Shown here in pieces: positions 1-52,350 of a stretch of 64,000 bases of DNA. The DNA is from Symbiodinium natans (lineage: Eukaryota; Sar; Dinophyceae; Suessiales; Symbiodiniaceae). Location: the NCBI GenBank assembly GCA_905221605.1, contig CAJNDS010002091.1, positions 824,501 through 888,500 of the forward strand. The letters run 5' to 3'. Under the pieces are notes generated by a model that did not search any database, was not told the DNA's origin, and worked only from the letters and a program-made list of their open reading frames with translations. The position numbers and the translations under genes were made by a program. Every line of letters begins with the position of its first letter. Positions within the stretch are counted from its first letter, which is position 1.

Positions 1-60
1 CGAAACCCCAAAAACCCCAAACCCCAAACCCCAAACCCCAAAACCCCGAACCCCGAACCC

Positions 61-129
61 CAAACCCTAAACCCTAAACCCTAAACCCTAAACCCTAAAC
101 CCTAAACCCTAAACCCTAAACCCTAAACC
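61..129. repeat. CCCTAAA array at the window's left end
   Basis: About ten perfect CCCTAAA units, preceded by degenerate CCCCAAA and CCCCGAA units in 1-60. The C-rich strand reads 5'-3' on the plus strand, the orientation expected at a left chromosome end, but similar arrays occur throughout the window. Confidence 0.9.
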
Positions 130-134
130 CTCAC

Positions 135-223
135 CAGCCAGCGGGCGTACGACTCAGCTGCCGCCATGACGTCCGCGACGGAGACCGAGCTTGAGGAGCT
201 GTGGTCCGGGTAGCCGCCACCTC
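135..223 (-). CDS. Candidate exon ending at a telomeric-repeat donor
   Basis: Follows CTAG at 224 and reads GGGYPDHSSSSSVSV...AAAESYARWL. It ends in phase 0 at CTG|GTGAGGGTTTAGGG, so the telomere-like tract begins at the 5' splice site. The plus strand is also open here (a short frame with an ATG), so the strand choice rests on neighbours. Confidence 0.5.
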
Positions 224-642
224 CTAGAGGGCTTTTCGATGTCATTTTCTCAAGTAATCTTAGGGTTTAGGGTTTAGGGTTTGGGGTTTGGGGTTTGGGG
301 TTTGGGGCATGGGGTTTGGGGCTTGGGGTTTGGGGTTTGGGGTTTAGGGGTTGTACAGGGTGTAGGGTTCAAGGTTTAGGTTGAGGGTTGCAGATTAAAC
401 TAGAGGAATATTGGAGGTGAGAGAGGTTGGAATTTGAGGAAGCCTAAACCTAAACCCTAAACCTTAAACCCTACTGTAAACCCTAAACCCTAAGCCCTAA
501 ACCCTTTTGGGGCTTCAGGCTCAGAGCTTTGGACAGGGCTTGCGGTTTGGGGTTTCGGGTATCTGGGGAGGGCAATGACACGCCACGCTCGGCACCTCGC
601 AAAAACACCCCATCACCCTAAACCCTGAACCCTGAACCCTGA

Positions 643-706
643 ACCCTAAACCCTAACCCTAAACCCTAAACCCTAAACCCTAAACCCTAAACCCTAAACC
701 CTAAAC
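643..706. repeat. CCCTAAA array
   Basis: Near-perfect heptamers with one CCCTAA hexamer. Confidence 0.9.
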
Positions 707-750
707 CTTGTCCGGCAGTCCGAGTCCCGGGACGCTCTAGAACCTCGAGC
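707..750 (-). CDS. Short candidate exon
   Basis: 44 nt, after GTGAG, reading LEVLERPGTRTAGQ and ending at G|GTTTAGGG. Length alone makes this weak. Confidence 0.3.
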
Positions 751-879
751 CTCACCCCCACATGCATTGCATTCTGGGACTTTCCACCCCACAAAAGACC
801 AGTACTAATGGACAAAACAAAACCCCCTTACACCCTAAAGCCTAAACCCTAAACCCTAAACCCTAAACCCTAAACCCTA

Positions 880-1085
880 AACCCCTTTGAGCCGAAACTT
901 TTCATTGTCTGGCATCTTCTGCACGTCCGTGATCTACCCAGGGGGCTTGCCCCGCTCCTTTTCTGTAAGGATGGTTGTAGTACGTTTGTGCATTTGTTAC
1001 CTAGCTGTGAAACACGCCCACGCAGCTTCTGGCACTGCGCTATTTTGAGCTGGCCGCCGAAACTGCTGGGCCAAAAACAAATGAT
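880..1085 (-). CDS. Possible coding patch, one or two exons
   Basis: After TTTGGCCCAG near 1072 a minus frame reads QFRRPAQNSAVPEAAWACFTAR to a GTAACA donor. A second patch after TTACAG continues in compatible phase (KGAGQAPWVDHGRAEDARQ) to a TGA. Other frames are open in part, so this is tentative. Confidence 0.3.
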
Positions 1086-1463
1086 CTCTCTATATGTTGT
1101 CCCAGCATGCTCACTTCTGCAGATGGGCGGAACATGTGGACACATTCGCCCACGCAGACTGAGCACACCGAGGTAGCTCTACACACCCAACACGCAAGAA
1201 ACACAAAAACAAGAACACAATTTAAACGAGTGGGGGAGCCCCAAACTCCCCAGCTTGTTCGGTTCGGGTTTAGGGTTGAGGGAGACACGTCTAGACACCT
1301 GCTGAGGGGCTTTGTTTTTTTTGGGGGTTTAGGTTTTAGGGTTTAGGGTTTAGGGTTTAGGGTTAAGGGTTAAGGGTTAAGGGTTAAGGGTTTAGGGTTT
1401 AGGGTTTAGGGTTTAGGGTTTAGGGCTCCCCACTCACAGCTTAGGCCGGCCGCATGCAAGTGA

Positions 1464-1640
1464 TCACTTGCGCAGCCAGACGTCGCCATTATTCCAGGAA
1501 ATGCTGGTCTGCGCATCGCGGTCGACTCTGCCAACTGCAACCTGACCCTCTTGTTCGTACATGACGGTATCTGCCGCCACGATTTGCAAATAAGCACTGT
1601 CCTCCGGCTGGTGCCATTGCTGGTGCCAGATCAAGCGGTC
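1464..1640 (-). CDS. Candidate exon with in-frame stop
   Basis: Starts after CTCCAG and reads DRLIWHQQWHQPEDSAYLQI..., then RVDRDAQTSISWNNGDVWLR and K, with TGA at 1464-1466 (or an AA|GTGATC donor). The 58-codon open frame is rich in Trp, Asp and Gln. The sequence just before it repeats the end of the exon at 1887-1805 (see findings). Confidence 0.58.
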   Translation of the reverse strand, partial: DRLIWHQQWHQPEDSAYLQIVAADTVMYEQEGQVAVGRVDRDAQTSISWNNGDVWLRK

Positions 1641-49561: not shown

Positions 49562-49649
49562 AAAGGTTTAGGGTTTGTAGGGTTTAAGATCTCTTCGTCA
49601 CTTCATTGGCTTGGGCTGCGAAGATGCTTGGGGGCATCCTCGAAACCCT

Positions 49650-49830
49650 GCTTGGAGGTTCGGTGTACTCCCAAACCCTAAACCCTAAACCCTAAACCCT
49701 AGACCCTAAACCCTAAACCCTAAACCCTAAACCCCCGAAAGCACCTACAAGCCTGCTACGTACCGGAAGGTGTGTAGGTGCGCTATACGTACGGCTCGAA
49801 TTGGGCGAGTAAGTACCATGAAGCTCCACG
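49650..49830. mobile_element. Family D element split by a CCCTAAA tract
   Basis: GCTTGGAGGTTCGGTGTACT is followed directly by about seven CCCTAAA or CCCTAGA units, then the remaining body and GTACCATGAAGCTCCACG. Confidence 0.65.
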
Positions 49831-50296
49831 TAACCCTGAACTCCAAACCACAATCCCCCTCACCCCCGCCCCCCAAAGCTTCGGTTTGAAGAGGCACTGT
49901 TGGGGCCCAAGGATGAGGTCGTAGGGATGCCAGCCCTAAACCCTATCGACCCTCAACTTACGTAAGTCCTGATGTAGGTTTCAGACTTGGGCTCATACGG
50001 ATTTAGGGCTCACGGCTTTGGGTTTAGGGTTTGGGGTTTGGGGTTTAGGGTTTAGGGTTTAGGGTTTAGGGTTTAGGGTTTAGGGTTTAGGGTTTAGGGT
50101 TTAGGGTTTAGGGTCCCTATGCCTAAACTCTAAGCCCCAAACCCCAAACCCTAACCCCTAAACCCTAAACCGCCCTAAACCCTAAACCCTATCACCCAAC
50201 CCGTCCCTGAACCCTAAACCCTAAACCCTAAACCCTAAACCCTAAACCCCAAATCCCAAACCCCAAACCCCAAACCCTAAACCCTAAACCCTAAAC

Positions 50297-50357
50297 CCCC
50301 GTCCCAGAACCAGCCTTGGGCAGGCAACCACACGGCCAAAGTCGGTCGCACCTGCAC
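50297..50357 (-). CDS. Candidate exon ending at a telomeric donor
   Basis: After GCACGTCAG, 20 codons VQVRPTLAVWLPAQGWFWDG, ending G|GTTTAGGG. An internal GC donor at 50315 is an alternative. Confidence 0.5.
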
Positions 50358-50628
50358 CTGACGTGCATTTGGGGGACCAAGGGCCTTGGGCTTACCTTGT
50401 GGGTTTAGGGTTTAGGGTTTAGGGTTTAGGGTTTAGGGTTTAGGGTTTAGGGTTTAGGGTTGTTTGTGTTAAGCTTGGGGTTTTGCTCGTGTTTTGTGGG
50501 CTTTGCGGGCAGCATCGGCGTGAGAAAACGCGTGTATTGCTCAAGTCTTCTCGGGAAAATCCTTCCGGTTGTTTTGCTGTAACGCGATATCCCTTTCTGG
50601 TTCCTTAATATACGGGCGCCATGGTGGG

Positions 50629-50721
50629 GATGCTCTCCCTTATACTAGAAGTCCCTAATCGGGGTTAGAATAGGGGGTACTAGAATCCCTATCAAGGACT
50701 GTTAGTATAAGGGGGAACATC
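50629..50721. mobile_element. Inverted-repeat element (pair with 42483)
   Basis: GATGCTCTCCCTTATACTAG start, AGTATAAGGGGGAACATC end. Confidence 0.72.
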
Positions 50722-51378
50722 CCAAGGTTCCGCCCAGGAAGCCCAAGCTTAGGTGAAAGGTCCCGGGACAGAGATCCACGCCAGCCCCAAAAGCCCTAAA
50801 CCTTAGGGTTTAGGGTTTCGGGTTTAAGGTTTAGGGGAACCCTAAAAGCTAAAATTCTAAGCTGGGGCGAAGTTGGGTCTGGGATGTAGAATAAACGATC
50901 CAAACACCATAAACCCTAAAACCCCGCCCCTGTGTGCTTCTTGAACCCATGGTCCTGTCTCGAAAACATGTGGCCAGTTTTGCGAAGAGGTTATTTTTTA
51001 ATACAGCAAGGACTACTGTAAGGCTTAAGGTTAAGGAATACAGGTGTGTTGGCACCCCGACAACAGGAACGCCCGAAACATAACATAGTCCCCCTGACAA
51101 TGCTTAGGGTTACCCCAAACTCCCGCCCAAAAGAAAATTTCACCCCAAAACTCCGGACCCCAAACCCTAAACCCGAAGTCCTAAACCCCGAACCTCTAGA
51201 TGGATCCTCGGCCGAGAGAAAAAAATGTATGAAACACCCTCAGCCCTAGCCCCTGAAGCGTAAAAACGCTCAAGAACACGGGCCCAAACTACCGCCTTAC
51301 ATCACGAAAAAGAATTGATTAAAATTAGGCCTGCTTAAATTAAACCCCATACCTCCACTAAACCTGAACTTCCTAAAC

Positions 51379-51443
51379 GGCAAGGGCCTCCCAGGAAACA
51401 AACTCGCACTGCTCGGCTGCTCCTCAGCGTTCAGGGGCCGGAG
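51379..51443 (-). CDS. Candidate exon ending at a telomeric-type donor
   Basis: After CCCACAAAG, 21 codons LRPLNAEEQPSSASLFPGRP then L, ending CC|GTTTAGG. Confidence 0.5.
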
Positions 51444-51449
51444 CTTTGT

Positions 51450-52350
51450 GGGTTCGGGGCGGTTTAGGGCTTGGGGTTTAAGGCTTATAGGGTTTCGGGT
51501 TTCGGATTGAGGGTGTAGGCTTGTAGGGTTTAGTTCAAGGGGTTTAGGGTTCCGGGTTTATGCGGGTCAAGCCCCTGTTTGTAACTCGGGTTGATATTTC
51601 AAGGCCTTCCAAGCCCGATTTGAGGCCCGATTTGATCCCGTCTCTCTGCCCAGTTCACAAAACTATTTGGGGCCCCCCCCCCCCCCCCCCCCCGCGCCTC
51701 CCCCTCCCGCCCCACCCTCCCCCCGCCTTTGGAATCTCAAAGGTTTCGGCATGCACGTCGCGCTTGCTCATCGGAGCTAAAAATTGAGACATGACCGTGC
51801 AAGCAGAATTATGGAGGGTTGACAAGGATGGAGCAGGGTCTGAGCTTGTATATATGTATATATTCATCCGCCTGCGCATACATATACACAGAAGATTCGG
51901 CCCTCGGGTGTAGGGAAGAATGAAAGGGTTCACATGGATTAACAAAGGCTTCCTAGAGTTCAGGGTTCAGTGCTGGATGTTCTGTTTTTTTCTAGTCAAG
52001 CAGTTGTCAGGTGACAGATAATTTGTCCACCCGCCCACAGACTCCCCTAACGTCACGAGAACAAACAAATGTCCCACAACATTTGGACAGTTCTATCCCT
52101 ACCTTCCCCATTCTCTGAACCTGTTCGGTTTTTCTTGGTTTTCAGCCAGGAATACATAGACCTAGAGCCCAATGGGCAAAGAGGCTGCTGAAATCTTTTT
52201 CGCCTGTCCACTGCAGTTTATCTCATCATGCAGCTGTCCCCAGCTGCCAGAAACCCGAGGTTCACAAGCGAGGCAGCAGCACGACACAGACTTTACATAA
52301 TATTCAGGCTGAGATGATGCTTGAGTAGTCTTGGTTCAGCATATTTTTCT
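51450..52350. other. Transition between the repeat mosaic and the gene array
   Basis: Telomere-like units stop near 51550. A poly-C run (51673-51694), a TATA-rich microsatellite near 51850 and unique sequence follow; no gene recognised. Confidence 0.5.

Follow-up and report, generated by a model that had tools for sequence, protein, structure and literature searches.

Probable introner-like introns with telomeric interiors in the genome of Symbiodinium natans

A telomere-tract mosaic next to a gene with telomeric introns

The stretch of Symbiodinium natans DNA analyzed here, referred to as the window, is 64,000 nucleotides (nt) long and covers positions 824,501-888,500 of contig C1779 (1,548,494 bases; assembly of 759 Mb in 2,543 contigs). 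It consists of a mosaic of telomere-like tracts and short unique spacers over positions 1-51550, followed by a region at 52-64 kb that contains a gene of unknown function on the minus strand. Several introns of this gene, and most of the introns that we could place in genes elsewhere in the genome, carry telomeric repeat arrays, and their anatomy resembles that of introners, which are taken to be introns created by the insertion of short mobile elements. An original prediction made from the letters of the window had read the mosaic itself as more than 50 minus-strand exons separated by telomere-repeat introns.

The presence of the mosaic was borne out by hidden-Markov labelling, which assigned 31.7% of positions 1-51550 to telomere-like repeats, comprising 8,210 bases of TTTAGGG-like (G) and 8,106 bases of CCCTAAA-like (C) sequence. 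The corresponding share of positions 51551-64000 was only 6.3%. A C-tract, a spacer and a G-tract follow one another 75 times in the whole window, with a median spacer length of 99 nt. Telomere-like sequence also made up 15 to 36% of four 10-kb flanks of the window and, on average, 12.1% of 14 sampled regions (140 kb); it was absent from five of these 14 (L014, L015, L021, L023 and L026), which may be gene-dense regions or foreign contigs. Across the assembly, (CCCTAAA)3 has about 2.37 million matches (1,184,385 forward and 1,185,204 reverse), compared with 33 forward and 41 reverse matches for a control pattern read backwards. The window is a single sample of a feature spread genome-wide and, as its coordinates within the contig show, the TTTAGGG arrays sit away from chromosome ends.

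The gene at 52-64 kb is collinear with protein P0009 of Cladocopium goreaui (929 amino acids [aa], 38% identity) and also with P0008. Placement of six introns was attempted, and five were placed by homology, three of them with a CCCTAAA-sense array (see Table 1). In the predicted gene structure of the 51.6-64 kb region, none of the 13 tracts of at least 14 nt overlaps a predicted exon, and all five tracts lying within 60 nt upstream of predicted acceptors are in the CCCTAAA sense. A 19-nt tandem repeat, AGAACGTTGCCTGCTAGCG, is present in four copies at window positions 58712-58814, within a predicted intron.

Homology-placed introns and their anatomy

To place introns outside the window, gene models were examined in five loci (L012, L013, L018, L019 and L020), and the two with recognisable multi-exon genes were taken further. 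L018 and its neighbour L027, at positions 50001-67983 of contig C800, encode ankyrin repeats (Ank_2 in L018, Pfam E value of 1.3e-62), while L019, at positions 50001-60000 of contig C1850, encodes an ascorbate peroxidase (PF00141, E value of 6.8e-43; PDB, E value of 3.5e-52). With a slash marking the junction, the ankyrin introns were fixed by ALMMAAQHAHV/DAVDLL, GWTAL/MVAAAHGH and LGRT/ALMIAAKRGH, and the peroxidase introns by MLDK/CKTD, AK/SCGPIM and MA/LLEDP. Protein homology and reading frame together gave exact placements for 22 introns, the five of the window gene included, and 19 of the 22 carry telomeric arrays: nine of ten in L018 (one with merely 4%), all three in L019, all four in L027 (one at 8%) and three of five in the window, the labelling of tracts being more permissive for L019, L027 and the window than for L018. 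The highest telomeric contents were 79% of L018:1651-2168 and 76% of L019:7751-8116. On the evidence of these placements, introns dominated by telomeric repeats exist in this genome.

Five introns have two arms. In four of them a G-tract precedes a C-tract, and L027:2945-3557 reads C, G, C. The donors of the 22 introns are GT (10), GC (6) and GA (6), and each of the 22 acceptors reads AG with a G after it, a motif that also served as the rule for choosing among reading frames. A few nontelomeric bases usually lie between donor and tract. The earlier proposal that the repeat itself supplies the donor in about half of the cases did not hold among these introns, since an exon running directly into GTTTAGGG was placed only once in 22 (L027:5064). 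The arrays also vary internally. Across about 200 nt of L019:7751-8116, the array shifts from CCCTAAA to CCCCAAA, a variant-repeat expansion within one intron, and in L019:6944-7147 the variant unit TTTAGTAGGG recurs among normal TTTAGGG units. In L013 (1657-761, minus strand), translation of a long microsatellite of the CA/GT type gives HTHT repeats.

Direct repeats of at least 4 nt were found at the junctions of 10 of the 22 introns (5 of 10 in L018, 3 of 3 in L019, 1 of 4 in L027 and 1 of 5 in the window), compared with 1.13% of random donor/acceptor pairs; the longest, GCTGCTGG, spans 8 nt in the peroxidase gene. The two ends of the introns are also complementary. When the 16 introns placed outside the window other than L027:3629-4704 were folded, pairing of the ends left a median residual distance of 9 nt between the splice sites, compared with 46.5 nt for shuffled sequences and 48.5 nt for random segments (P of about 4e-5). 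Terminal inverted repeats are thus a feature of this set, with individual exceptions, pairing being weaker in L018:3035-3127, L018:2586-2905 and L027:5064-5196 (residual distance, 32 to 35 nt). Folding energies were extreme in L018:4026-4320 (z score, -14.9) and L018:4405-4771 (z score, -6.85 in one folding run and -5.6 in another).

Similar ends may recur at different sites. Several ankyrin introns start near CCTTGGGGA and end in CCCCAAG or similar (family 1), and one starts GTGG-CTAGGACCCAGAG and ends CTCCTGGGTCTAG (family 2). The family 2 start, which lies on the coding strand in L018, also occurs in the window: allowing at most 5 mismatches in 20, positions 1-51550 contain 10 minus-strand matches and a single plus-strand match (P = 0.012; 0.13 in shuffled spacers). 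This start is part of a family of short repeats dispersed in the window, whose copies share one orientation and lie between telomeric tracts. A separate spacer of 103 nt occurs in two copies that are 98% identical (6337-6439 and 11464-11566), which we read as a recent duplication or an element.

Coding potential of the mosaic spacers

The seven spacers cited as examples in the original prediction (18303-18205, 18995-19087, 19426-19329, 35781-35683, 39740-39662, 45153-45062 and 47318-47219) have the form described for them, namely, a preceding AG, one or more open frames on the minus strand and then GTTTAGG. This form was compared with chance on the 54 spacers of 45 to 200 nt that lie between a C-tract and a G-tract in 1-51550, using 60 dinucleotide shuffles of the spacers. 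An AG, an open frame and a GT or GC donor occurred together in 39 spacers when the minus strand was read and in 41 when the plus strand was read, and the shuffles gave 41.8 ± 2.2; with GTTTAG as the donor, the corresponding counts were 26, 26 and 27.7 ± 2.0. As evidence for exons, these features are therefore at chance level. Within 7 nt, any TTTAGGG tract offers a GT, and the order of C-tract, spacer and G-tract looks identical from either strand, so this geometry is uninformative about which strand is transcribed. The phases at which tracts start likewise look similar on both strands, as judged by eye.

Coding signal was assessed with a codon and splice-site model trained solely on minus-strand sequence from 52-64 kb, which replaced a self-trained gene finding of the whole window that was overfitted (minus, 2321; plus, 1922). 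The model scored 309 on the minus strand and 29 on the plus strand of its training region. In 1-51550, the minus strand scored 43.7 with 25 exons and the plus strand 19.7 with 17 exons, compared with 10.7 ± 4.3 in 40 shuffles, and the best four plus-strand matches are antisense to minus-strand matches. Thirteen minus-strand exons scored above 5, where 5.1 ± 2.1 were expected. Exons with a telomeric donor exceeded this score three times on the minus strand (those ending at 14424, 19329 and 24405) and once on the plus strand, compared with 0.58 ± 0.67 in 60 shuffles. A plainer codon comparison gave a weak preference (36 of 62 spacers for the minus strand and 26 for the plus strand; P = 0.063). 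The excess of minus-strand codon signal over shuffles suggests that 1-51550 holds perhaps eight to a dozen minus-strand exons and not the more than 50 first proposed, most spacers being without support.

Searches of protein families gave one noteworthy match. Among 450 of the 513 minus-strand open reading frames (ORFs) of spacers, eight Pfam families matched at an E value of 0.05 or below, the best being Histone in spacer 45153-45062 (20.6 bits, below the Pfam gathering score of 26.4), followed in the same spacer by a RING domain (0.0044). In a plus-strand control of 150 of 490 ORFs, there were five matches, the best at 0.0015. Fourteen of 29 residues of the spacer are identical to histone H3, and the match to H3 in PDB reached an E value of 0.28 only. 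The spacer belonged to the seven examples cited beforehand; since 450 ORFs were scanned, its assignment as a histone H3 exon is suggestive only, and no further H3 exon was found. Ten long ORFs of the window gave two weak Pfam matches, both below the cutoff, and neither Rfam nor tRNA scanning of the window produced a match. A composite query of 14 candidate pieces (542 aa) had as its sole match a retroelement fragment. This fragment is cut at both ends and adjoins telomeric tracts. No neighbouring part of the retroelement protein turned up in the window, and for relative P0003 the reverse-transcriptase match is itself below the cutoff (E value of 0.0019).

These results bear on an alternative that is quite possible, namely, that 1-51550 is decayed intergenic DNA composed of arrays of telomeric repeats, small elements and captured pieces, among them the retroelement fragment, and that introns with telomeric repeats are present elsewhere only. 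The chance-level behavior of the spacers, the composite searches that yielded a retroelement fragment and nothing else, and the single noteworthy, subthreshold Pfam match from 450 ORFs are all in line with it. It leaves unaccounted for the minus-strand coding excess, the three telomeric-donor exons scoring above 5, the H3-like spacer and the strand bias of family 2 starts, and we consider it less probable than a mosaic that holds perhaps eight to a dozen minus-strand exons.

Table 1. Features of the window (positions counted from its first nucleotide)
Feature	Position	Strand	Basis or remark
Telomere-tract mosaic, both orientations with short spacers, probably mostly noncoding	1..51550	.	Hidden-Markov labelling; similar flanks and genome-wide matches
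Top-scoring candidate exon, donor GTTTAGGG	14424..14522	-	14515-14424 scores 12.8; 40 shuffles gave no score above 10
Candidate exon, telomeric donor	19329..19426	-	Score 7.0; no homologue found
Candidate exon, telomeric donor	24405..24510	-	Score 5.4; no homologue found
Probable H3-like exon, flanks (CCCTAAA)nCAG/ and GG/GTTTAGGG	45062..45153	-	PF00125, E value 5.4e-4
Truncated retroelement protein fragment, dinoflagellate type	40950..41342	-	P0001-P0007, 35-58% identity
Family 2 start match	26681..26700	-	At most 5 mismatches in 20
Other nine family 2 start matches, beginning at	36960, 31914, 30881, 30847, 28668, 25516, 8683, 8649, 8266	-	
Dispersed short repeat copies	8535-8652, 16272-16321, 25517-25578, 26614-26699, 28564-28639, 30367-30437, 30748-30850, 36888-36959		
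Predicted intron, TTTAGGG tract then CCCTAAA tract	53118..53293	-	Gene model only
Gene of unknown function	54788..58355	-	Collinear with P0009 of Cladocopium goreaui
Intron, CCCTAAA-sense tract 35% of 126 nt	55037..55162	-	AAWH/VLADDTN vs P0009; junction direct repeat GTGCT (5 nt)
Intron, CCCTAAA-sense tract 43% of 127 nt, precise donor site uncertain	55365..55491	-	Placed vs P0009
Intron, CCCTAAA-sense tract 34% of 99 nt	55860..55958	-	EGTQ/GFVAW vs P0009

Interpretation and possible origin of the telomeric introns

We favour, with a probability of about 0.6, the reading that the genome contains introner-like introns with a telomeric interior, that the gene at 52-64 kb has such introns, and that 1-51550 is mostly noncoding element and repeat DNA with perhaps eight to a dozen minus-strand exons. 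The part of the original prediction that concerned telomere-repeat introns would then stand for this gene and for genes elsewhere, whereas the spacer features on which it was based do not pick out exons. Dinoflagellate introners have been described in Amoebophrya (PMC7789003), in Prorocentrum cordatum (PMC10666404) and by Roy et al. (2023), as summarised in PMC11453091; excerpts of these papers mention repeats, both inverted and direct, together with hairpins and unusual donors. As in those excerpts, the S. natans introns have inverted repeats near both ends, predicted hairpins and non-GT donors, and part of the set has direct repeats at the boundaries like those of 3 to 5 nt described there. 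They differ in that their interior is mostly telomeric repeat, a property for which there is no mention in the available portions of PMC7789003, PMC10666404 and PMC11453091; in addition, Amoebophrya introners are described in the excerpt as short and largely of a noncanonical splice type, whereas the S. natans introns have GT, GC or GA donors with AG/G. Among the titles and abstract openings of the literature matches listed, there was no report of telomeric introns, and an earlier description may exist.

Several observations weigh against the introner-like reading. Twelve of the 22 introns have no junction repeat of at least 4 nt, the ends of L019:6944-7147 do not pair (residual distance, 115 nt), and folding energy is ordinary in many introns, with z scores near 0 in several. 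Two of the five placed introns of the window gene are without a tract, as is a single L018 ankyrin intron of doubtful placement, and none of three introns of a chaperonin gene (C1992), labelled with the more permissive setting and read from frames rather than exactly placed, has one, which brings the telomere-bearing total to 19 of 25. The orientation of tracts at predicted exons differs among loci, with C-rich tracts upstream in L018 and L019 and G tracts in L009, in L013 and on one of the strands of L022. In the window, the acceptor-like CCCAAGG occurs 3 times on the minus strand and 11 times on the plus strand, a scan for the combined repeat and inverted-end signature was weak (6 minus and 5 plus, compared with 1.85 ± 1.15 shuffled), and a composite query of 15 pieces (544 aa) of candidate exons found no homologue. 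The sample itself may be biased: loci were chosen for recognisable genes, 14 of the 22 introns come from contig C800, three or more additional gaps in the L018 gene were left without a placement, and the choice of introns among frames with AG/G could lean towards repeats.

Some of these observations would be expected if the repeats were passive interstitial telomeric sequences, scattered genome-wide by break repair and slippage and held by ordinary introns because introns tolerate them, with no intron-making element involved. Insertion of repeats at repaired breaks has been described in primates and rodents (excerpt of PMC7215372), flanks with little coding signal are as tract-dense as genes, and tracts are missing from some introns of the window gene and of the chaperonin gene. 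We nevertheless consider this explanation rather unlikely, given the junction repeats in 10 of 22 introns, the paired intron ends and the recurring element ends. The introns do share with interstitial telomeric sequences the presence of telomeric repeats off chromosome ends (excerpts of PMC7215372 and PMC6395649); in Karenia, interstitial telomeric hybridization signals are described as rare (excerpt of PMC6395649). Unlike such sequences, the S. natans arrays are very abundant and located within introns. A misplacement of telomeric reads within contigs during assembly is highly improbable. The five tract-free regions among the 14 sampled show an uneven assembly and speak for it; against it stand the matches counted in millions, the degenerate, imperfect repeats and the confinement of tracts between homology-placed exons.

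Under the introner-like reading, many of the genome's short telomere-like arrays, which number in the millions, would sit within spliceosomal introns. Each such intron would have ends complementary to each other, in many cases a short direct repeat shared by both splice junctions, a GT, GC or GA donor and an AG/G acceptor. Its interior would be largely (TTTAGGG)n, (CCCTAAA)n or both, in the last case usually with TTTAGGG first. Splicing would probably follow the ordinary dinoflagellate rule. The TTTAGGG unit contains decoy AG/G and GT, and CCCTAAA has neither AG nor GT; the CTAAAC within CCCTAAA arrays resembles a branch-point motif. Base pairing between the two ends, and between the G and C arms, could loop the repeats out and join up the splice sites. 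Head-to-head telomere fusion sites read TTTAGGG and then CCCTAAA. The introns usually show the same order and differ in being short, numerous and intronic and in having arms separated by unique sequence. If telomerase added repeats to the two ends of a break that were then joined, this order might result. More tentatively, intron-creating mobile elements with a telomeric body may be at work, whose insertion would lay down head-to-head arms that form a hairpin and give a spliceable intron, and whose spread could have made telomeric DNA a major component of introns.

How new introns arise is an old question. Introns that combine junction repeats with a telomeric interior would tie their gain to the synthesis of telomeric repeats or to break repair. 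They also raise the question of how the spliceosome passes over the thousands of decoy AG and GT dinucleotides that TTTAGGG arrays contain. If the proposed mobile elements are real, telomerase would contribute directly to intron gain.

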